44,677 bases of DNA. It comes from Candidatus Thioglobus sp. Its GTDB lineage: Bacteria; Pseudomonadota; Gammaproteobacteria; PS1; Pseudothioglobaceae. Below the pieces are notes generated by a model, which was not told the origin of the DNA, ran no database searches, and saw only the letters and a program-made list of their open reading frames with translations. Within the stretch, counting starts at the first letter, position 1; each line of letters starts with the position of its first letter. Made by a program: the position numbers and the translations under genes. Positions 16,670 through 44,677 of this stretch are shown piece by piece. The DNA lies in NCBI GenBank assembly GCA_012959965.1, contig DUCF01000008.1:1-44677 (forward strand), in the 5' to 3' direction.

Positions 16670-17788
16670 ATGTCATCAGCAGCACCTATCGTAATGAAAT
16701 TTGGCGGAACAAGCGTTAGGAACGACAGCTCGCGCACCAGTGCAATGAGGCACGTTAAAGATCATTTTGAGGATGGCAAGGATATCGTTGTCGTTGTTTC
16801 TGCTATGGGTCGTAAAGGCGAGCCCTATTCAACAGACACTTTGATTAACATGGTCAAGCTTGTCGGCAAACATATTTGCCCTAAAGAGTTGGATTCTGTT
16901 ATGAGTATTGGTGAGAACTTGAGCGCCGCCTATTTTGCTCACTTTCTTAATCAAAACGGTATGAATGCGATTTCATTTGACGGCCGTCAAGCCGGTATTT
17001 TGACGGATGATAACGCCGGCAATGCTGAGATAATTGAAATTAACCCAGCTCGAATTCGCTCGGCTTTAGCCGAGGGAAATATTGTGGTTGTGGCTGGCTT
17101 CCAGGGTGTTAATAGCGATGGTGATGTGCGTACGCTCGGACGTGGTGGTAGTGATACTTCTGCCGTTGCATTGGGCGCAGCATTGGGCGCTGAATGTGTT
17201 GAAATTTATTCGGATGTTGATGGTATCGCTAATTGTGATCCGAGGCAAGTGACAACCGCTGTTTTTATGGACTCAATCAGTGCGGCACAAATGATTATGA
17301 TGTCGGATGAAGGCTCCAAAGTTATTCACCCTCGCGCGATAAAAGCGTCACTAGTGAGTAAAACACCGATTATTGCCAGAAATACTTTTAACGATGCGCC
17401 CGGCACAACTATTTTTCACGGTGAATCGTCGGACTCTAGCTGCGCCACCCTGGCACACCGAGAGGACATGGTTATGGTTGAGTTTGAGTACGCCCACGAT
17501 GCGGGTAGCCACGTTGAAGGTGTCATCAATATCGACTCTAAGCGCGTTATCTTGAGAGATGATGTGTATTTCAGTGCAAAGCTTTCACGGTTGGAAGAAA
17601 GCTTTGGCTTTTATAAGGTAAGCAAGGGTTGGGCGACGGTTTCGGTTGTTTTTAACGACAAAGCCCCTGAGGCGATGGCAATCGAATCGGCGGAAGTCCT
17701 TGAAACTGAAGCAAACGTCATTAGCTATTTGCTGCCCGAGTCAGAAATGCGAGTTGCGCTCAATACTCTTCACGCTGCATACACGTAG
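16670..17788 (+). CDS. Aspartate kinase, DapG-like
   Basis: A 372-residue monofunctional aspartokinase, first step of the lysine, methionine and threonine pathway. The catalytic core is intact: KFGGTSV at about 9-15, VVVVSAMGRKGEPYSTDTL at about 38-56, and GRGGSDTSAVALGAALGAE then DVDGIANCDPR. These blocks resemble Bacillus DapG more than the usual proteobacterial LysC. The regulatory part after about residue 265 is only about 105 residues and diverged, although the last helix (MRVALNTLHAAYT) matches the end of a DapG ACT domain. Feedback control may therefore be altered. It lies just before a one-carbon and amine cluster, so a specialised role is possible. Confidence 0.87.
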   Translation: MSSAAPIVMKFGGTSVRNDSSRTSAMRHVKDHFEDGKDIVVVVSAMGRKGEPYSTDTLINMVKLVGKHICPKELDSVMSIGENLSAAYFAHFLNQNGMNAISFDGRQAGILTDDNAGNAEIIEINPARIRSALAEGNIVVVAGFQGVNSDGDVRTLGRGGSDTSAVALGAALGAECVEIYSDVDGIANCDPRQVTTAVFMDSISAAQMIMMSDEGSKVIHPRAIKASLVSKTPIIARNTFNDAPGTTIFHGESSDSSCATLAHREDMVMVEFEYAHDAGSHVEGVINIDSKRVILRDDVYFSAKLSRLEESFGFYKVSKGWATVSVVFNDKAPEAMAIESAEVLETEANVISYLLPESEMRVALNTLHAAYT

Positions 17789-34154: not shown

Positions 34155-34679
34155 ATGAAGAGTAAAAATAAAAACAATAAAAAACCGCTACTGATATTGG
34201 CACTACTTGCCATCGCTGGCATTGTTGCTTACATCTTCCTTGCAAGCGACTCTCAAACTGACAATGAAGAGATGGGGCAAACCATTCCTATTCAGAATAG
34301 GGACCATATCTCAGAGAGTGAAACGGTGCAAGTTTACAATTCAAATCCACCAACATCAGGCCCACACGCTGGCGCTATCAAGGGTGGCTATTATGATGGC
34401 GAGATAGAAGATATTAATGGTGTTCACAATCTAGAACATGGTTTTATTTGGATTACCTATCGAAATGTTAGTACTGAAACAAAAGCCAGATTAAGAAAAA
34501 TTGCTAATCGTCATTCGGGAAGGGTGGTGGTTTCTGAACGCAGAGCCAATGACGCTCAAATTACCCTTGCCTCGTGGGGTCGTTTTGACAAGATGTCGCA
34601 AGAAGAGCTTGACGAAGATTATGTCATTCGTTTTATTGATAAATACACCAATAAATCCCCTGAGAAGTTTGCCAAGTAG
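34155..34679 (+). CDS. Membrane-anchored DUF3105 protein
   Basis: A 174-residue protein with a basic N-terminus and one transmembrane helix (about 11-29, LLILALLAIAGIVAYIFLA), then an extracytoplasmic domain. The DUF3105 signature is present: VYNSNPPTSGPHAG (about 60-73) and GVHNLEHGFIWITY (about 90-103). The conserved histidines and glutamate in those two motifs look like metal ligands. No function is established for the family. It starts after a 96-base gap and is convergent with a small exported-protein ORF. Confidence 0.88.
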   Translation: MKSKNKNNKKPLLILALLAIAGIVAYIFLASDSQTDNEEMGQTIPIQNRDHISESETVQVYNSNPPTSGPHAGAIKGGYYDGEIEDINGVHNLEHGFIWITYRNVSTETKARLRKIANRHSGRVVVSERRANDAQITLASWGRFDKMSQEELDEDYVIRFIDKYTNKSPEKFAK

Positions 34680-34727
34680 GTGGTAATTTTTTTTCAAGGT
34701 GGGGTAGAAGAGAAACGAAAGTTAGTA

Positions 34728-34745
34728 GTTTATTAATTAATAAAC
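34728..34745. repeat. Perfect 18-bp AT-rich palindrome
   Basis: GTTTATTAATTAATAAAC is fully self-complementary. It lies 48 bases after the DUF3105 stop and 19 bases after the small minus-strand ORF's stop, between convergent genes. It may act as a weak bidirectional terminator. Confidence 0.5.
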
Positions 34746-34764
34746 ACTCTGATAAGGGTGCTCT

Positions 34765-34905
34765 CTAGCTAGCTTTTTCTGGAGTTACCTCGTGCGCTAC
34801 CAATCCATTATTGCGTTCTGGAGCTGACAATTTAGCAATTAATGGAATGACACCCGTTATGATGAGGACAGAGAGAAGCAATGCTAATAGTAGTATTCTT
34901 TTCAT
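34765..34905 (-). CDS. Small exported or membrane protein, 46 residues
   Basis: The minus-strand ORF reads MKRILLLALLLSVLIITGVI then PLIAKLSAPERNNG and ends HEVTPEKAS. The basic start and single hydrophobic helix indicate a signal anchor or an exported small protein. A TATAAT box lies at 34942-34937 with a start about 25 bases before the ATG, and AGAG provides a weak ribosome site. The composition after the helix (charged, proline) is protein-like. I know no family. Confidence 0.5.
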   Translation of the reverse strand: MKRILLLALLLSVLIITGVIPLIAKLSAPERNNGLVAHEVTPEKAS

Positions 34906-34936
34906 TATTTACTCTAATCTAAGCAGGGTGGTTTTT

Positions 34937-34942
34937 ATTATA
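34937..34942 (-). promoter_or_regulatory. TATAAT -10 element for the 46-residue small gene
   Basis: On the minus strand this is a perfect -10 hexamer 31 bases upstream of the small ORF start. No clear -35 was found at the correct spacing. Confidence 0.4.
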
Positions 34943-35113
34943 CTCGCAGGGATTCCTTCGTAGGATGCGTCTTATAAGCGGGTATTTCAGGCGATAGTTA
35001 TTAGCCAAGATTACGGCGTGGAGTAAATGAGAAGTGGGGGTTTACGAATCGTAAATGACTACTTCGAGGCTTGCTTCACAACAAAAATATTGGCCAAGAA
35101 GTATCTCTGTAAT

Positions 35114-36655
35114 TTAGTGTTTGAAGTGACGCATGTTTGTGAAGATCATAGCAATCCCATGCTCATCAGCAGCGGCAATCACATCATCGTCACGCATTGA
35201 GCCGCCAGGGTGAATAATCGCTTTAATGCCGGCCTCAGCTGCCGCATCAATGCCGTCCCTAAACGGGAAGAAAGCGTCTGAAGCCATTACAGAGCCATCA
35301 ACAATCAAGCCTTCGTCAGCGGCCTTAATGCCAGCAATTTTGGCCGAGTAAACGCGCGACATTTGTCCAGCACCAACACCAATAGTCATTTGATTTTTGA
35401 CGTAAACAATGGCGTTAGATTTAACGCACTTGGCCACCTTCCAGGCAAATAGCATGTCTTTCATTTGCTCAGCAGTTGGTTGTATTTTGCTGACACATTT
35501 TAGATCAGACTCTTGAACTGAGCCTGAATCCTTGTCTTGCACCAACAGGCCGCCAGTTACTTTTTTGTAATCCAGTGCTGGTTTTGTTGTTTGCAAGTCG
35601 CCGCACTCAAGTGCGCGAATATTTTGTTTGTTTGCGAGAACGGTTTTGGCATCGTCGTCAATACTCGGACAAATAATCACCTCAACGAATTGACGCTCCA
35701 CAATGCTCTTTGCTGTTGCACCGTCTAGCGCTCGGTTAAAGGCAATAATGCCGCCGAAAGCGGATGTTGGATCGGTTTTGTAGGCATCATCGTAAGCTTC
35801 AAGAATAGAGTCTCTGGTTGCTACACCGCAAGGGTTTGCGTGCTTTACAATAACACAGCTTGGCTCTGAAAATCCACGGACACATTCCAGAGCAGCGTCA
35901 GCGTCTGCAATGTTGTTAAAGGACAGGGCCTTTCCTTGGTATTGTGTGCTTGAGGCAACACTGGCTTCAACGAGATTGGCTTCTTTGTAAAAAGCTGCCG
36001 CTTGGTGTGGGTTTTCACCGTAACGCATGGTTTGCGATTTTACAAACTGCAGGTTAATGGTGTTTGAAAATCCATCCTCTTCTTGGCCAAGGTAATTCGC
36101 AATAGCGCCGTCATATTGGGCAGTGTGCTCAAATGTTTTAAGCGCTAATTTTTTACGTGTATCAAGTGTCGTGTCACCATTGTCCGCGACTTCATCAAGG
36201 ACTTTTTGGTAATCACTGCTGTCAACAATAACCGTAACAGAGACGTGATTTTTGGCGCTAGAGCGTAACATCGCTGGACCGCCGATATCAATATTTTCAA
36301 TGGCATCATCGAGTGTGCAATCGGCCTTAGCAATCGTTTCTTGAAAAGGGTAAAGGTTGACCACGACCAAATCAATTGGATTGATGTCGTTCTGTGCCAT
36401 TACACCTTCATCAATGCCACGACGCGCCAAAATGCCGCCATGAATTTTAGGGTTTAGTGTTTTAACGCGACCGGCCATCATTTCTGGGTAATTGGTGTAG
36501 TCTGAGACTTCAATCACCGGAATGTTGTTTTCTTCTAAGAGCTTGGCGGTGCCGCCTGTTGAAAGTATTTCGATGTTGAATTCACTCAGTTTTTGAGCAA
36601 ATTCAATAATTCCTGATTTGTCGGAAACACTAATCAGAGCGCGTTTAATAGCCAT
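35114..36655 (-). CDS. purH: Bifunctional AICAR transformylase/IMP cyclohydrolase PurH
   Basis: A 513-residue protein for the last two steps of IMP synthesis: formyl transfer from 10-formyl-THF to AICAR, then ring closure. The N-terminal MGS-type cyclohydrolase domain has [12 protein letters not shown] and [15 protein letters not shown] (about 32-75). The transformylase domain includes [22 protein letters not shown], and the C-terminal [11 protein letters not shown] and [11 protein letters not shown] blocks. The length is close to that of E. coli (529). It follows fis after 92 bases, the standard dusB-fis-purH order of many gammaproteobacteria. Confidence 0.97.
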
Positions 36656-36747
36656 TGATAATCCTTTAGGATGCGGTGCGGTTAAAAGGAAATATTATAT
36701 AAGATATCCGTGCATCAAAATAATGCGATTGACACAAAGAGCTAAAG

Positions 36748-36978
36748 TTACAACTGGTAGAGTGCTACTTTTTTCTTTAGAGTGGCGCGATTAATACCGA
36801 GAATTCTGGCGGCCTCGCTGTGGTTGTGGTTGACTTTATTGAGGACAAACTTCAAGGTTGCGGTTTCCGTTTGTTGCGCTACCATTTTGAATACGCCAGA
36901 GGCGGACTCGTTGTTCAATTGAGTGAAGTATCGCTCAAGTTTTTGGTGAATACAGTCGTGTAAATCGCTTTGATTCAT
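36748..36978 (-). CDS. fis: DNA-binding protein Fis
   Basis: A 76-residue nucleoid protein, shorter than E. coli Fis (98) and similar to the short Fis of other gammaproteobacteria. The C-terminal helix-turn-helix is intact: LKFVLNKVNHNHSEAARILGINRATLKKKVALYQL region, where helix 4 contains N63-R64 of the recognition element. The N-terminal hairpin arm used for Hin stimulation is absent or reduced. The start codon overlaps the dusB stop as ATGA, so translation is coupled. It acts as a growth-phase regulator of ribosomal and other promoters. Confidence 0.95.
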   Translation of the reverse strand: MNQSDLHDCIHQKLERYFTQLNNESASGVFKMVAQQTETATLKFVLNKVNHNHSEAARILGINRATLKKKVALYQL

Positions 36979-37943
36979 AAAGAATGCAAAAAATCTCGGA
37001 ATATGAAATATTGTTCAGAGTGATCACTCACTCGATTAATGTTTGGCCAAAAATCTCTAGCTTTTTTCTGGTCAAGACGCATAGAATACCAAAAAATATG
37101 CTTCCTGGCTAGCTGAGTGCCTAATATATTTCCATAAAAGTCATGAATTCTTGAGATATGGTTTAGTATGACTGGGATCTTGTCATTTTGACTCATTGGT
37201 GACTTTATCTTCCCCGTTGAGAGGTGGTGATGAACTTCGCCAATCAACCAAGGATTGCCCTGAGTTGCCCTGCCTAGCATAACAGCGTCTGCTGAAGTGT
37301 AATCCAGAACTTCTTTGGCTTTTTCAGCGCTACTGATATCGCCGTTAACAACCACAGGGATGTTGGCGTCACTGACTATTTTTGCAACCGTCTCATATTC
37401 TGCTTCACCCAGATATTTTTGCTCACGTGTCCTGCCATGAATTGCGATCATTTGAATGCCGGCATCCTCGGCTATTTTGGCAATAGTGGGTGCATTTTTG
37501 TTTTCCTCGTTCCAGCCGGTGCGCATTTTCAGCGTCACTGGGATATCCACAGAGGCCACCACTGCATTAAGGATATCCGCCACCAGTTTTTCATTTTGCA
37601 TGAGTGCAGAGCCCGCGGCTTTATTGCAAACCTTTTTCGCAGGGCAGCCCATATTAATATCAATAATGTCGGCTCCAAAGCTCACAGCTTGCACAGCTGA
37701 TTCGGCCAGTTGGCTAGCCTCAGAGCCGGCTATCTGGATACTGATAGGGGATTGTTCGCCGCTAAAATCTAAGCGATATTTTGACTTGTTGGTATTGAGC
37801 AGGTGTTTCTGAATAACCACCATTTCTGAGGTGGTCAGCGCCGCGCCTTGTTCACGGCAAAGCATGCGAAAAGGTTTGTCACTGGTGCCTGCCATCGGTG
37901 CGAGTAGGACTTGGGTGTTTAGCTTATAGTGACCGATTTGCAT
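36975..37943 (-). CDS. dusB: tRNA-dihydrouridine synthase DusB
   Basis: A 322-residue FMN enzyme that reduces uridine to dihydrouridine in the tRNA D-loop. The FMN-binding start LLAPMAGTSDKPFRMLCRE, the active-site cysteine in NMGCPAKKVCNKAAGSALM, the HGRTREQ block and the phosphate loop VNGDISSAEKAKEVL then GRATQGNPW are all intact. The dusB-fis pairing is the classic arrangement in which fis is translated from the same message. It starts 17 bases after def. Confidence 0.96.
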   Translation of the reverse strand: MQIGHYKLNTQVLLAPMAGTSDKPFRMLCREQGAALTTSEMVVIQKHLLNTNKSKYRLDFSGEQSPISIQIAGSEASQLAESAVQAVSFGADIIDINMGCPAKKVCNKAAGSALMQNEKLVADILNAVVASVDIPVTLKMRTGWNEENKNAPTIAKIAEDAGIQMIAIHGRTREQKYLGEAEYETVAKIVSDANIPVVVNGDISSAEKAKEVLDYTSADAVMLGRATQGNPWLIGEVHHHLSTGKIKSPMSQNDKIPVILNHISRIHDFYGNILGTQLARKHIFWYSMRLDQKKARDFWPNINRVSDHSEQYFIFRDFLHSL

Positions 37944-37960
37944 TAGGACGACAGAAAACT

Positions 37961-38458
37961 TTACAGTCTTTTGGCTTGTTTGCTAGCTTTTTCTTTAAGG
38001 CGTTTTTGCTTTAGCTTTGAAATGTAGTCGACAAATAGAATACCGTTAAGGTGATCAATCTCATGCTGAATGCAGACCGCCAATATTTCACTGGCCTCCA
38101 TTTCAAACTCTTCACCATTTTGGTCAAGGGCGTGAACTTTAATATCATTAGCACGCTTGACGCTCTCGTAATAATTAGGCACCGAGAGGCAGCCTTCTTC
38201 CCATTCGATTTCGCCAGATTTTTCAATAATTTCAGGGTTGATTAGGCACAGTGGTTGGTTTTGTTCATCAGAAATGTCAATCACAATCACTCTTTGATGA
38301 AAGTCCACTTGGGTTGCGGCCAAGCCAATTCCCGGGGCATCATACATGGTTTCAAACATGTTTGAAACTTGTGTTTTAATGATGTCATCAACTGCCTCAA
38401 CCGGCTTAGCAACGGTTCTGAGTTTTTTGTCTGGGTAGCAAAGAATGGGTAGAAGCAT
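37961..38458 (-). CDS. def: Peptide deformylase
   Basis: A 165-residue metalloenzyme that removes the formyl group from nascent proteins. The three metal-site motifs are GIGLAATQV (about 44-52), EEGCLSVP (about 87-94) and QHEIDHLNG (about 130-138), giving the Cys and two His metal ligands and the catalytic glutamate. Usually def is followed by fmt; here it is followed by dusB and preceded 5 bases away by nadB. Whether a second def-fmt pair exists elsewhere cannot be seen. Confidence 0.96.
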
Positions 38459-38463
38459 GATTT

Positions 38464-40026
38464 TTACGGGGTCTTGATAATAACACTATTATCCGCGCTT
38501 TCCAACTGTTCAGGATAGTCGAGAGTGAAATGGAGGCCGCGACTCTCTTTTCTTGAAAGTGAAGATTCGACAATAATTTGTGCCGTTTGCACAAGATTTC
38601 GAAGTTCGATAAGGTCTTCTGTGAGAATGTAGAGACGGTAATAATCATTTACTTCTTTTTGAATTTGTGTCAGTCGGCGATGAGCCGTTTCTAGGCGGCG
38701 GTTGCTGCGTACAATGCCAACGAAATTCCACATAATGCGCCTTACTTCCTGCCACAGATGAGAGACTACGACTTTTTCTTGGGAGTGCTGTACACGCGAT
38801 GCATCCCAATCATTAAATGATGGTAAATCGTCAATTATATTTTCACTGTTAATATGCTTTGCACAGGCTTTGGCAAAAACAAGACATTCAAGAAGCGAAT
38901 TACTCGCCATTCTATTGGCGCCGTGTACGCCGCTGTGAGCTACCTCACCAATGGCATAAAGATTCTCAACACTGCTTTGAGCGTTTATATCGGCACCAAC
39001 ACCGCCACATGTGTAGTGTGCAGCCGGCACTACAGGGATGCGCTCGTTGCATATGTCAATACCTAACGCAAGGCAGCGCTCGGTAATGGTTGGAAAGCGC
39101 TCGGCAATCCAGCGACTGTCTTTAAAGGATAAATCTAGATAAACACAATCAAAGCCATGAGTTTTCATTTCATGATCAATAGCTCTAGCAACAATATCAC
39201 GAGGCGCCATTTCTTCTCGTTCATCGTATTTGTGCATGAACGGCTCACCATTTGGCAAAGTTAGCTTGGCACCTTCACCTCTGAGCGTTTCTGAAATGAG
39301 AAATGATTTGGCATGGGAGTGAAAAAGGCAGGTCGGGTGAAATTGAGCAAATTCCATATTGATAATTTCACAGCCTGCGCGATATGCCATAGCAATGCCA
39401 TCGCCAGTTGATGTGTCCGGGTTAGAGGTGTAGAGGTAGGCTTTTGAGGCGCCTCCTGTAGCTATAATTGTCTTGCTTGAAATAAAAGAAGAGACTTGGT
39501 CATTTTGTTTGTCGTAAACGTAGGCGCCAAAGCACTGCTTGTCTTTCATTAATAGATCAATCGCTATATGGTGCTCAAAAAGCGTAATGTTTGATTTTTG
39601 ACGCACTTGTGCGAGTAAATTTGTTTGCACAGATTGGCCGGTTTTGTCCGAAACATGGGCTACGCGTTTGGCGCTATGACCACCCTCGGTAGTGAGGTCG
39701 TATTTTTTGCCCTGCTGAGAAAATTTTACCCCTGCTTTTTCTAAATCTTTGATCGCGTTTGGCGCCTGTTCGACCATAAATCGAATACTTTGCTTATTGC
39801 CCAGTTCAAAGCCAGTTTTTATGGTGTCTTGTATGTGAGAATCAAAATCATCGGCAGAATCGAGCACTGCCGAGATGCCACCTTGTGCATAATAAGAGGA
39901 GCCCTCTAAGAGCTTGTCTTTGGCGATTAGTGCAATTGACAAATCCTCGGAAAGTTGTATGGCGCCCATCAATCCGGCTGCACCTGAGCCGATAATGAGC
40001 ACGTCAAATTGGTAAGTTTTTGACAT
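38464..40026 (-). CDS. nadB: L-aspartate oxidase NadB
   Basis: A 520-residue FAD enzyme that oxidises aspartate to iminoaspartate, the first step of quinolinate and NAD synthesis. The FAD start is [18 protein letters not shown] (about 8-25), followed by [13 protein letters not shown]; the active-site loop has [18 protein letters not shown], and the C-terminal blocks are [15 protein letters not shown] and [20 protein letters not shown]. It heads the nadB-def-dusB-fis run. In many gammaproteobacteria nadB is divergent from rpoE; rpoE is not seen here and a small RNA candidate is upstream instead. Confidence 0.96.
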
Positions 40027-40093
40027 AGTTAATTGAAAAAAATTGGGGTTAAAATTAGATTAATTAAGGTTGAAAATAAATCATAAAAAAAAG

Positions 40094-40123
40094 TTGTAAA
40101 TAGTATTGATTTGCGTATATAAT
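40094..40123 (+). promoter_or_regulatory. Sigma70 promoter of a candidate small RNA
   Basis: TTGTAA (40094-40099) and a consensus TATAAT (40118-40123) lie 18 bases apart and point away from nadB. No open reading frame starts downstream before the terminator, so the transcript would be non-coding. Confidence 0.6.
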
Positions 40124-40129
40124 ACCCGC

Positions 40130-40212
40130 CTGAGTTAAACCCTACTAGTTAACTTATCTCTCCTTTAGTATAGTAGACTAAACCCGCTCTCTTATTCGAG
40201 GCGGGTTTTTTA
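40130..40212 (+). ncRNA. Candidate intergenic small RNA, about 83 nt
   Basis: Starting 7 bases after the TATAAT box and ending at a strong intrinsic terminator, the transcript would be about 83 nt. It has no ATG or other plausible ORF. TTTAGT (40164-40169) and ACTAAA (40177-40182) can form a second hairpin that overlaps the first three bases of the terminator stem. I do not recognise a known RNA family. It lies between nadB and the MMPL gene, which both face the other way. Confidence 0.5.
40180..40212 (+). terminator. Intrinsic terminator with long U-run
   Basis: AAACCCGC (40180-40187) pairs with GCGGGTTT (40201-40208), with inner CTC/GAG, a TTATTC loop and a following T-run. It is orientated to end the plus-strand small RNA. 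Read on the minus strand, the stem also follows no gene end. Confidence 0.85.
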
Positions 40213-40224
40213 TTGCACGCTCAT

Positions 40225-42501
40225 TTATTTTCCCATGTTTGGCTTAAACATTAGTAGCAGTTTTGGCAATAAAGTGAGGTTTGCCAGCACGGCACTTAGC
40301 ATCGCAATTGCGGTAAAAATACCAAAGTAAATACTAGGAATAAAATTTGATAGCGCTAGCACCAAAAAGCCAATGGCAACGGTGATGGATGTGTAGAACA
40401 TCGCGAGACCAATTGAGGCGTGCGAGCGATACATAGTGGCTAGGTAATCTTGATCAACCCTAAACTCTGACTTAAAGCGATGAATATAGTGAATAGCATT
40501 GTCTACGCCAATACCAATGGCAATGGCAGCAATGGTGATCGTCATTAAATCGAGCGGAATATTGGCAAGTCCCATAATGCCCAAAATAAGCAGTGATGGC
40601 AAGGTGTTTGGAATCAGCGCCAGAATTGAGAGACTGATCGATCGAAAGATAAATAAGAACATCGCAAAAATCATCGCAAACACGAGGGCGATGGTCTTGA
40701 TTTGAGATGTAAATAAGCTTTGCAACAGGTTGTTGTATAAAACAAACACACCCGTCATTCTGAAACTGTCTGGTTCGAGGTTAAACTCGTTGATAAGGTG
40801 TGCTCTTACTTCGTTAATAAGTTCATCTCTTTTGAGGGCGCCATCGGTCTCTCGAATTCTTGCAACCAGTCTCAACTGGTTTTCTGATTCGGATAGATAA
40901 GGGTCAAGCACTTGTTCTCTGGCAAAATCTGGCATTTGATTTTTAGCTATCATTAACAAAAATCCAGTCGGTGGTATGCTGGCATTGGCCTGCGTGAGAA
41001 TTTGCATCAGTGTATCAATTGACAGCACCTTGCCTGTCGCATCAAGGCTGTCCATATATTGATGAATGTTATGAACGTCTTCGCGCAAAAAGTCGTCCAC
41101 CCAGTAGGCGCTAGCCATGTCGTCAAAGACAATTTCAAGTGACATGGTGCCACCCAGTTGCTGGTCAATTAAACTTAAACCTTGGTGAATTTCGGTGGAT
41201 TTCTTAAAATAATCGATGAAGCGGTTTTCAACGCTTAATTTACTTACGCCAATTAGCGCAATGGTAACGATAAGAGTTAGGGCAATAATCAGTTGATTGC
41301 CGTATTGATGGGTGAAGTTAGCCAACTTGTTGGTGAAGGCGAATTCTGTTGAGTGTTTTGCAATCTTAGGCTTTGGCAATAAACTCATTAAGATTGGAAA
41401 GCTCAAGAAAGAGAGTGCAAGTGCAATGGTAACGCCAATAGCCATCATCCAGCCGAAGTCAATGACGGGGCGCACGTCGCTAATCATCAATGAAGCGAAT
41501 GCGGCGATGGTGGTCAGTGTTGTGAATAAACACGGTTTGGACATTTGTTGCAACGTGAGCATAGTCAGTGAATTGACGTCGGCCTCAGGGGTTTGTTGTG
41601 AAAGTTCTTTAAATCTCACCACCAAGTGAATGGTGACTGAGAGAGTCATCACCAGTAGCAATGAGAAGAAATTGGAAGAAATGACGGTTACCTTCCAGCC
41701 CAGCGCACCCAGTACGCCGGTCATTATCAAGGCACCCGTGACACTGATACCTATCGGCAATAAAACCCACCTTATGCCTCTAAAAATAAGGGCAAGCATG
41801 ATGGACATAACAAGTACGACAGCAAGGCTGAAGAGTACAAGGTCGCTGGCAATGTAGGCAATGATGTCATTTCTGATCATTGGTACGCCGCCTAAATAAA
41901 GCTGTGCGTTCTTGCTGTAGCCTTCCATTATTGCTCGAATACTTTGCACCGTGTCTGCTAGTGCATCATTGACGTCTTCAGTTGATTTGTCGACCTCTTT
42001 AAGACTAATAAGTAAAGCGGATGTTTTGCCATCAAGGCTAACCAAGTTGTCAGCATAAAGCGGGCCGCGTCTGAATTCGCCTGCTATAAATGACATATCA
42101 GCCTTGCCATTGTCAATGGTAATTGCATCTCCCGTCAACTCTATTAGTGAAAGCGGCGGCGATTGAAATAAAGGCACATCGAGAATAGAAGTCACTGAGG
42201 CAACCCTCTTAAGTGCGAGCAAGTCATCTCTCAGGGCGCGCAAATACTTAATTTGTTGAGGGTCTAAAACACCGTCTTCAGTGGTGTAGCTAATAATTAA
42301 CGATGAGCTAGAAGTCTGGAAAGTTTCTTGCGTTTTTTCGAATAATGCAAGGTTGTTGTCGCCTTCAAGCGCGAGAGAATCTGATGAAGCGTCAAGAGAG
42401 AAGTGTGGGATTTGGTACAGTAGCGAGCCGATTAGGACAAGTAGCAGTGTTAGTGCCAGTACCGATTTTTTAATCAGAAAGTTGAAAAGAGAATTCAACA
42501 T
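40225..42501 (-). CDS. MMPL/RND superfamily exporter
   Basis: A 758-residue inner-membrane protein with the RND two-fold layout: one N-terminal helix (about 10-30), a periplasmic domain, five to six helices at about 215-385, a further helix near 400-420, a second periplasmic domain, and the last helical bundle at about 610-750. GVDNAIHYIHRF in the second bundle is the proton-relay-like segment, and VTIHLVVRFKEL is its counterpart. This layout matches the HpnN/MMPL group, which moves hopanoids, lipids or other hydrophobic compounds. It lacks adjacent adaptor or outer-membrane genes. The MITE-like element ends 15 bases upstream of its start. Confidence 0.88.
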   Translation of the reverse strand: MLNSLFNFLIKKSVLALTLLLVLIGSLLYQIPHFSLDASSDSLALEGDNNLALFEKTQETFQTSSSSLIISYTTEDGVLDPQQIKYLRALRDDLLALKRVASVTSILDVPLFQSPPLSLIELTGDAITIDNGKADMSFIAGEFRRGPLYADNLVSLDGKTSALLISLKEVDKSTEDVNDALADTVQSIRAIMEGYSKNAQLYLGGVPMIRNDIIAYIASDLVLFSLAVVLVMSIMLALIFRGIRWVLLPIGISVTGALIMTGVLGALGWKVTVISSNFFSLLLVMTLSVTIHLVVRFKELSQQTPEADVNSLTMLTLQQMSKPCLFTTLTTIAAFASLMISDVRPVIDFGWMMAIGVTIALALSFLSFPILMSLLPKPKIAKHSTEFAFTNKLANFTHQYGNQLIIALTLIVTIALIGVSKLSVENRFIDYFKKSTEIHQGLSLIDQQLGGTMSLEIVFDDMASAYWVDDFLREDVHNIHQYMDSLDATGKVLSIDTLMQILTQANASIPPTGFLLMIAKNQMPDFAREQVLDPYLSESENQLRLVARIRETDGALKRDELINEVRAHLINEFNLEPDSFRMTGVFVLYNNLLQSLFTSQIKTIALVFAMIFAMFLFIFRSISLSILALIPNTLPSLLILGIMGLANIPLDLMTITIAAIAIGIGVDNAIHYIHRFKSEFRVDQDYLATMYRSHASIGLAMFYTSITVAIGFLVLALSNFIPSIYFGIFTAIAMLSAVLANLTLLPKLLLMFKPNMGK

Positions 42502-42516
42502 AGCCAGGCTTTATCG

Positions 42517-42787
42517 AGAGACCTTCATAGGAATAATTTTAGATTTGATAGTGGATTTTTTATTGTTTTGCAAGGCATATATTTTGAAGTTCTACTTGTT
42601 GTCTGGCGAAAAAAATTAACACAGGAAAATAATAAAAATCCCCTATCCCAAAGGTCTGAGACGAAAAATGCTAAAAAATTCAGAAAAATTCTCATCAATA
42701 GCTAGTGCTATTAATTTTAAATTGTTACACATTTTTTATTCATTTTTATCACTCGGCAAATATTAAATAATTCCTACGAAGGTCTCT
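42517..42787. mobile_element. MITE-like element with ~30-bp imperfect terminal inverted repeats
   Basis: The 30 bases at 42517-42546 match the reverse complement of 42758-42787 at 26 of 30 positions, starting with a perfect AGAGACCTTC and a following TAGGAAT. The 211-base interior is AT-rich and has no credible ORF or transposase. The element nearly fills the gap between the MMPL start (42501) and the stop of the downstream-facing methyltransferase gene (42790). No clear target-site duplication is visible. A miniature inverted-repeat element is the simplest reading; a very long RNA hairpin in the MMPL leader is the alternative. Confidence 0.6.
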
Positions 42788-42789
42788 TT

Positions 42790-43443
42790 TTAAAAAGCAA
42801 ACACCGCCGTCGGCTCTTGGCCTTGCATATAGTCTAAGTGGGTTTCAAAAATTGATTTTGCTTGCCACTCGTTATCACCAAGTCTGGTGGTCAAGGTTGC
42901 CTGCATTTTATTCTTGCTGCCAATAATCGCAAACAATCTGCCACCAGTATTGAGTAGTTCATTTAATTTCTGACTTTGCGCATTCAAAGAGCAGCCAAGG
43001 ACAATAACGTCGAATTTTTGTTTTGAGAAGTCAGCTGTTGAAGCATCTGAGACTTGCAAATCAACATTGTTTATAGCAAGTGCGTCTATATTCTTTTTGG
43101 CGGAAGCGGATAACGCCTGATCAATTTCAATACTAACGACGCTGTCCGCAAGCTTGCCAAGTACCGCGGTGAAGTAACCGCTGCCTGTGCCAATTTCGAG
43201 CACACTTTCGTCGCCTTGGATGTTAATAGAGTCCAGAATTCTGCCTTCAATTTTTGGTGAGAACATTTTGGCGTTGTCGCTGAGAGGGATCTCGATATCA
43301 GCAAACACAAGACCCTGAAAGCCTTCGGGCACAAAGTTTTCTCTTGGTACATCGCTCAAGGCTTGATTGGCGCGCAGGTTAAGTCCACCCCAAGGGCGCA
43401 CTTGCTGCTCAATAACGTTTCTTCTTGCTTTGGTAATATCCAT
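42790..43443 (-). CDS. Protein-L-isoaspartate O-methyltransferase family (PCMT)
   Basis: A 217-residue SAM-dependent methyltransferase-like protein. The SAM-binding motif I is VLEIGTGSGYFTAVLGKLA (about 81-99) and motif post-I is VVSIEIDQ. The N-terminal block VPRENFVPEGFQGLVFADIEIPL resembles family members often placed near tolC or thiC in gammaproteobacteria. Classical PCMT repairs isoaspartate in damaged proteins, but this subgroup lacks some of the PIGxGxTISQP substrate motif (here FSPKIEGRIL), so the substrate may differ. It begins 8 bases after lpdA, suggesting co-transcription. Confidence 0.8.
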   Translation of the reverse strand: MDITKARRNVIEQQVRPWGGLNLRANQALSDVPRENFVPEGFQGLVFADIEIPLSDNAKMFSPKIEGRILDSINIQGDESVLEIGTGSGYFTAVLGKLADSVVSIEIDQALSASAKKNIDALAINNVDLQVSDASTADFSKQKFDVIVLGCSLNAQSQKLNELLNTGGRLFAIIGSKNKMQATLTTRLGDNEWQAKSIFETHLDYMQGQEPTAVFAF

Positions 43444-43451
43444 GTTTTTTC

Positions 43452-44677
43452 CTATTTCCTTTTTCTTGGCGGCATCAAGTCAGTGATTGTACCTTCCGCC
43501 ATTTCAGCCGCAAAAGCGGTTGTTTCTGAAAGTGTCGGGTGGGCGTGTACTGTGAGTGCAATATCGCTCATATCACAGCCCATTTCAATCGCCAAAGTTG
43601 CCTCTGCTATGAGCTCACCTGCGTTGGTACCACAGATGCCCATGCCGAGTATTTTACCGTTTGCGCTGTCAAATAAACCTTTTGTTACACCTTCGCTTCG
43701 ACCAATACTCAGGCTTCGTCCAGAAGCTGCCCAAGGGAATACACCTTTTTCGTAAGACACGCCCTCTGCTTTTAATTCTTTCTCGGTTTTACCGGTCCAA
43801 GCCACTTCTGGATCTGTGTAGGCAACGGATGGAATGGTGAGTGCATCAAAGCCAGATTTGTGTCCACAAATAACCTCTGCCGCCACTTTGGCTTCGTGTA
43901 CAGCCTTATGTGCCAACATTGGCTGGCCTACAACATCACCAATTGCATAAATACCCGAAACATTGGTTTTCATTTGTCTGTCAGTTGCGATAAAACCACG
44001 CTCATCTACTAAAACTCCTGCCTTGTCTGCATCGATCAATGCACCATTGGGTGAGCGGCCTATGGATACCAGTACTTTGTCAAAAGTGTCGGTCTCGGGT
44101 GCACTCTTACCTTCAAAGGAAACTTTAATGCCTTTTTTGAGCGCCTCCATATTGGTCACTTTGGTGTTGAGGTAGATATTCGCATAGCTCTTTTTAATGC
44201 GTTTAAATAATGGGCTAACAATGTCTTTATCAGCGCTAGGGATGAGCTGCTCTGCCAATTCTACGATGGTAATCTCACTGCCAAGTGCCTCATAAACAGT
44301 CGCCATTTCAAGGCCAATAATACCGCCACCAACGACCAGCAGTCGTTTTGGGATATCGCTAAGCTCTAAGGCATCGGTAGAGTCCATCACTCGGTCGTCG
44401 TCAAAAGGGAAAGATGGTATCTTGGTAACGCGTGAGCCAGCTGCAATAATACAATCTTCGAATTCAATGACCTCGTCACTGCCTTCAACACTGATTTGAT
44501 TGGGTGAGATAAACTGTGCATAACCAGTAATAATATTGACCTTTCTCGCCTTGGCTAATGCTTTAATGCCGCCGGTTAGTTTAACTACGATGTCTTCTTT
44601 GTTTTTCCTGACGCCATCAATATCAATTGACGGCGCTTCGAAATGCACACCTAAATGGTCGGCAGTTTTGGCTTCGT
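43452..44677 (-). CDS. lpdA: Dihydrolipoyl dehydrogenase, 3' part (runs off window)
   Basis: About 408 residues are visible, and the frame continues past the right edge without a stop; the N-terminal 65-70 residues with the first FAD motif and the redox CxxxxC lie outside. The NAD-binding motif is LLVVGGGIIGLEMATVYEALG, the second FAD contact is SGIYAIGDVVGQPMLAHKA, and the catalytic His-Glu dyad is in VHAHPTLSET. The enzyme re-oxidises lipoamide in pyruvate and 2-oxoglutarate dehydrogenase complexes. The GTG near 44648 is not a true start, since the protein continues upstream in frame. Confidence 0.95.
   Translation of the reverse strand, partial: EAKTADHLGVHFEAPSIDIDGVRKNKEDIVVKLTGGIKALAKARKVNIITGYAQFISPNQISVEGSDEVIEFEDCIIAAGSRVTKIPSFPFDDDRVMDSTDALELSDIPKRLLVVGGGIIGLEMATVYEALGSEITIVELAEQLIPSADKDIVSPLFKRIKKSYANIYLNTKVTNMEALKKGIKVSFEGKSAPETDTFDKVLVSIGRSPNGALIDADKAGVLVDERGFIATDRQMKTNVSGIYAIGDVVGQPMLAHKAVHEAKVAAEVICGHKSGFDALTIPSVAYTDPEVAWTGKTEKELKAEGVSYEKGVFPWAASGRSLSIGRSEGVTKGLFDSANGKILGMGICGTNAGELIAEATLAIEMGCDMSDIALTVHAHPTLSETTAFAAEMAEGTITDLMPPRKRK

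Follow-up and report, generated by a model that had tools for sequence, protein, structure and literature searches.

The window analysed here is a stretch of 44,677 nucleotides from Candidatus Thioglobus sp., and its segment at 42517-42787 is a copy from a dispersed family of MITEs about 272 bp long, which carries no gene and has its hosts in the Thioglobaceae (Pseudothioglobus/SUP05 clade). The family is a new one of an already known kind, namely MITEs with IS5-type ends, and the concerted evolution of its terminal arms is the notable part. The best joint explanation, in which we have high confidence, is that a gene-less MITE copy was moved by an IS5-family transposase and inserted in a probable operon, where it is most likely passive and its two arms are probably kept matched by copying at the DNA level.

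The element, its copies and its insertion site

The element and its surroundings consist of the following features.

42790-43443, minus strand: upstream gene, PCMT-type (protein-L-isoaspartate methyltransferase-like) methyltransferase (Pfam PCMT, 95.7 bits; orthologs in 24 congeneric genomes)
42517-42787, minus strand: MITE copy of 271 bp; the family consensus strand is the window minus strand, the same direction as both flanking genes
42764-42787, minus strand: terminal inverted repeat AGAGACCTTCGTAGGAATTATTTA (minus-strand reading) from the repeat search; family consensus AGAGACCTTTGCATAAATCATTTT at both ends
42517-42540, plus strand: terminal inverted repeat AGAGACCTTCATAGGAATAATTTT from the repeat search; family consensus AGAGACCTTTGCATAAATCATTTT at both ends
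40225-42501, minus strand: downstream gene, MMPL/HAE3-like RND transporter (Pfam MMPL, 124 bits), which directly follows the methyltransferase gene in the relatives with an empty junction

The original prediction had described a non-autonomous inverted-repeat element with an ORF-free interior, ends that match at 26 of 30 bases with a perfect first 10, and a location 15 bases before the MMPL start, and all of these points hold. Comparison of 42517-42546 with the reverse complement of 42758-42787 gives 26 matches in 30, with mismatches at 11, 19, 24 and 26, and the repeat search extends the inverted repeat to arms of 38 nt at 42510-42547 and 42757-42794, which are 82% complementary. Among spans up to 400, only two placements of overlapping size reach 26/30 in the whole window, and the best arm match in five mononucleotide shuffles of it was 22/30. 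The interior contains short spurious frames only, the longest one wholly inside being of 57 aa with a TTG start, so that no credible gene and no transposase lies within these 271 bp. The element lies 2 bp from the methyltransferase stop and 15 bp from the MMPL start. Searches of the element against phage records gave no match, and a conserved 21-mer had no exact match in viral contigs.

That the element is non-autonomous and has been mobile is borne out by dispersed copies, empty sites, a 3-bp duplication at the family level and, in a sister genus, an IS with ends that match. The window genome (G000; 1.79 Mb in 95 contigs) contains 8 dispersed copies, the other seven being 70-85% identical to the window copy. 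In the sister species G026 full-length copies number about 25, with many fragments besides. The sister species G019 has 5 matches of which three are near full length, each of two other congeners has a single match, short and weak, and the remaining congeners searched show no family match at E 0.001. Both orientations and all gene contexts are represented among the copies. There are also short versions of 54-107 bp, which keep the ends without most of the interior (L085:902-1008; also L052, L055, L063, L073 and L078). L085 is a 107-bp element at a site where the window genome has a 269-bp one (L002:1480-1748), and interiors have thus been deleted in place.

The junction of the two flanking genes was compared in 25 loci of congeneric genomes, one genome being counted on two contigs. 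It is filled in 2 loci, those of the window genome and G026, and empty in 23, namely in G019 (methyltransferase 89% identical) and in 22 loci of more distant congeners. This is the empty-site comparison that had been proposed as a check of the prediction, and it supports an insertion, because the genes in the empty junctions lie on the same strand with only 13-17 bp from the methyltransferase stop to the MMPL start. The insert therefore sits inside a probable operon of the two genes, and spacing and direction suggest that it is co-transcribed with them. Just downstream of the MMPL gene, at 40157-40214, there is an Rfam match to Betaproteobacteria_toxic_sRNA of 24 bits (gathering threshold 50), which is probably due to chance.

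Ends, target duplication and the candidate parent element

The family end consensus is AGAGACCTTTGCATAAATCA, and in an alignment of 34 full copies both ends share the consensus AGAGACCTTTGCATAAATCATTTT. A 3-bp target duplication is exact in 13 of 45 copies of the ~272-bp family, with 2.2 expected; the copies scored are old. The window copy has no clean 3-bp duplication (flanks TCG / TTT on the plus strand), so that this fixed-length duplication is a property of the family that is not intact at the window site. In the related 163-bp family, which shares with the ~272-bp family the ends AGAGACCTTTGCATAAAT and the 3-bp duplication, the duplication is exact in 42 of 55 cases against 3.8 expected. 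The 163-bp family differs in length and interior, is young, and is very abundant in the sister genus g4; it also occurs in G026. Its near-identical copies are present in very high number at L207-L223 (genus g4, G074 and G077), for instance L207:1953-2115, and are found in L224 and L226 of genus g2 as well. The 13-mer AGAGACCTTTGCA occurs 296 times in G074 (sister genus g4), in comparison with zero for a control pattern. One 163-bp copy, at 17506-17668, sits inside the remnant of an IS5-family element with matching ends (L210:17166-18186). The second family in G026, of about 163-166 bp (L065, L066, L069, L084, L093 and L094), has the same outer ends, and one transposase has therefore probably moved several MITE families.

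An intact IS of 1268 bp in genus g2 (L225:1341-2608) bears the same ends AGAGACCTTTGCATAAATCA, an ATT/ATT duplication and a 340-aa transposase, which scores 245 bits against the cut-off of 140 for NF033581 (IS5-family transposases, NCBIfam). This Thioglobaceae element and the MITE are alike in their ends over about 20-27 bp and in the 3-bp duplication; the IS differs by its transposase, and the two interiors are unrelated. Since, weak AT-rich matches aside, the ~272-bp family is like the IS in its outer 20-27 bp only, it is a solo-TIR (type II) MITE. Elements of the g2 type number 25 in G070 among the matches listed, and none was detected among 29 genomes of genus g1, to which the window belongs; the PF01609 profile likewise had no match in G000, G026, G019, G028 and G005. 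Of the genome search proposed with the prediction, the part on further copies thus succeeded, whereas a transposase with matching ends was seen only in a sister genus. Because a transposase of the matching type was not found in the window's genus, the putative parent IS is drawn from sister genera only. The moving enzyme would be an IS5-family transposase, as the matching ends and the duplication length suggest. In the defining features tested here the ~272-bp family is a MITE family, with its probable membership in a particular IS5 lineage drawn from the same two characters.

Comparable elements are known elsewhere. The Neisseria ATR (AT-rich repeat) is a type II MITE attributed to ISNme1, an IS5-family element with ends GAGACCTTTGCAAAA, and the 12-bp ends GAGACCTTTGCA have been reported in ISNme1 and in some BrickBuilt copies in Porphyromonas gingivalis (PMC4596501). 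ATR has in common with the ~272-bp family the 12-bp terminal GAGACCTTTGCA, an IS5-family parent, dispersed intergenic copies and no transposase remnant, whereas its host clade and interior are different, compared by the published description only (PMC4596501). BrickBuilt, also a MITE, shares IS5-type ends, with GAGACCTTTGCA in some copies; however, it contains a minisatellite and makes no consistent duplication, whereas the aligned copies of the ~272-bp family have no tandem array and the family has a 3-bp duplication (PMC4596501). In our literature search no MITE was described for Thioglobus, and nothing relevant was found for Bathymodiolus symbionts.

Matched arms and the readings of their covariation

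Across the family the two arms of a copy vary together: double-change cells in the paired arms number 78, in comparison with 25.6 +/- 4.2 after shuffling of the right arms across copies. As shared ancestry could inflate such covariation among copies, orthologous sites were compared in five copy pairs found by matching both flanks. In these pairs both arms had changed at 10 positions, and at 9 of these in the identical way, whereas 4.4 would be expected once the variability of each position is taken into account (P about 1e-4). The signal is driven largely by one pair of the five, the window copy and its G026 ortholog, between which a span of 12 nt has five paired changes that are identical in the two arms. 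At the window locus, 13 of 44 arm sites and 22 of 226 interior sites differ (P = 0.001).

Selection on an RNA stem is expected to tolerate G-U and to reject A-C mismatches. The counts were 33 G-U and 41 A-C on the consensus strand, and 16 G-U and 25 A-C on the strand read with neighbouring genes of the same direction, so that covariation is present without G-U tolerance on the transcribed strand. In comparison with shuffles the consensus fold is stable (z -4.65), which alone would also suit an RNA element, while the covariation term of the interior consensus fold is unfavourable on both strands. Because there is no G-U excess, the arms evolve faster than the interior, the interior shows no covariation, and orientation and context of the copies are mixed, DNA-level copying is favoured over RNA selection. 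The arm pattern thus favours homogenisation at the DNA level, for which template switching may be the mechanism, over an RNA leader.

Template switching is documented as a cause of paired changes in inverted arms (PMC8794818, PMC8604942, PMC7202029). The documented cases of homogenisation and the MITE ends have in common clustered changes by which the complementarity of inverted arms is preserved in the DNA itself; the former, however, are RNA genes, yeast coding repeats and E. coli reporters, whereas here transposon ends are separated by a spacer of about 220 nt (PMC8794818, PMC8604942, PMC7202029). Such a spacer is long for classical quasi-palindrome correction and is a difficulty for the mechanism. 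Among the papers listed in our literature search, none dealt with template switching at the ends of bacterial MITEs. With the chances evenly balanced, we propose that MITE ends evolve in concert by template switching within the element at fixed chromosomal sites, that the resulting multi-base compensatory changes mimic RNA structure, and that old copies keep matched private ends, which are perhaps no longer recognised by their original transposase.

The strongest competing account accepts the MITE and attributes the paired arm differences to subfamilies or to replacement of one copy by another, without homogenisation in place. End variants such as CAACAAT, CATAAAT and CACAAAC do recur in several copies. 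This account, however, sits badly with the concerted changes that appear when orthologous copies of one site are compared. In addition, the arm sequence of the window copy, CCTTCRTAGGA, is in no other family copy of G000, G026 or G019, so that no extant relative in these genomes was the donor, and the interior features that the window copy has in common with the G026 copy lie beside just one of the arms. We regard it as unlikely, although it is the alternative with the best chance.

Also part of the prediction was an 11-mer from the right end of the element that recurs elsewhere, possibly as a remnant. The recurrence is real: TCCTACGAAGG recurs at 34955-34965, where the window reads CCTTCGTAGGA, a sequence that one arm of the element has as well, in intergenic DNA of the same contig 7.6 kb away. 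The remnant was rejected, as the site at 34955 lacks both a GAGACC end and an inverted partner, and as the genome contains CCTTCRTAGGA 3 times in comparison with 2 for a control pattern. No alignment to G019 or G026 was obtained for the surrounding intergenic DNA. The match is most likely due to chance, although the site could conceivably have been an ectopic template for the private arm sequence of the window copy.

The MMPL junction and the proposed history of the element

Regarding the MMPL gene, the prediction that the element supplies or disrupts its promoter was not supported. A promoter role is unlikely at an operon-like junction, where the genes of empty relatives follow each other on the same strand at 13-17 bp, and no sigma-70-type promoter or terminator-like match was found in the element, which is weak negative evidence. 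A broader version of this idea is that the MITE was co-opted to regulate the MMPL gene, whether by a promoter, by a processing site or by a hairpin in the mRNA. Some bacterial MITEs do have known regulatory effects, and the element has been kept in two species 15 bp before the MMPL start. The copies, however, have no consistent orientation or gene context, the interior has no conserved structure, and promoter- or terminator-like matches are absent, so that co-option is improbable here.

The least probable reading, in which the MMPL gene has a structured RNA leader or intercistronic element with a long stem under selection for pairing in the transcript, has on its side the stable fold, the covarying arms and the location between co-directional genes, but it is already largely refuted and very improbable, since only 2 of 24 genomes are filled at this junction, many copies lie elsewhere in either orientation, the arms outpace the interior at the window locus, neither a G-U excess nor interior covariation appears on either strand, and Rfam over 34600-44677 gave two sub-threshold matches, neither within the element. 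The prediction had named a single copy with a covarying stem in all relatives as the outcome in favour of such a leader; the stem does covary, whereas the element is multicopy and mostly absent from the relatives.

For the preferred reading, that of a passive MITE copy, the following history may be proposed. An IS5-family transposase recognising AGAGACCTTTGCATAAATCA would have moved the element with 3-bp target duplications; the mobility is evident from the distribution and the empty sites, and the type of transposase is suggested by the matching ends and the duplication length. A matching IS survives in sister genera and was not found in the window's genus. Entry between the methyltransferase and MMPL genes probably predates the split of the window species and G026, in which the copies occupy the orthologous position, presumably from a single insertion. 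At present the element is most likely a passive, co-transcribed hairpin. Its arms have probably been kept matching by arm-to-arm copying, with replication template switching in the quasi-palindrome as the likely process behind the observed pattern, and such copying would make the ends resemble a covarying RNA stem.

These results document a MITE family in a clade made up of gill symbionts and streamlined marine bacteria, for which our literature search found none described, and tie it to a concrete IS5-type element. What is more, they offer a natural case in which covariation, the usual sign of RNA structure, appears without G-U tolerance at orthologous sites, and this calls for caution in RNA predictions in repeat-rich intergenic DNA.
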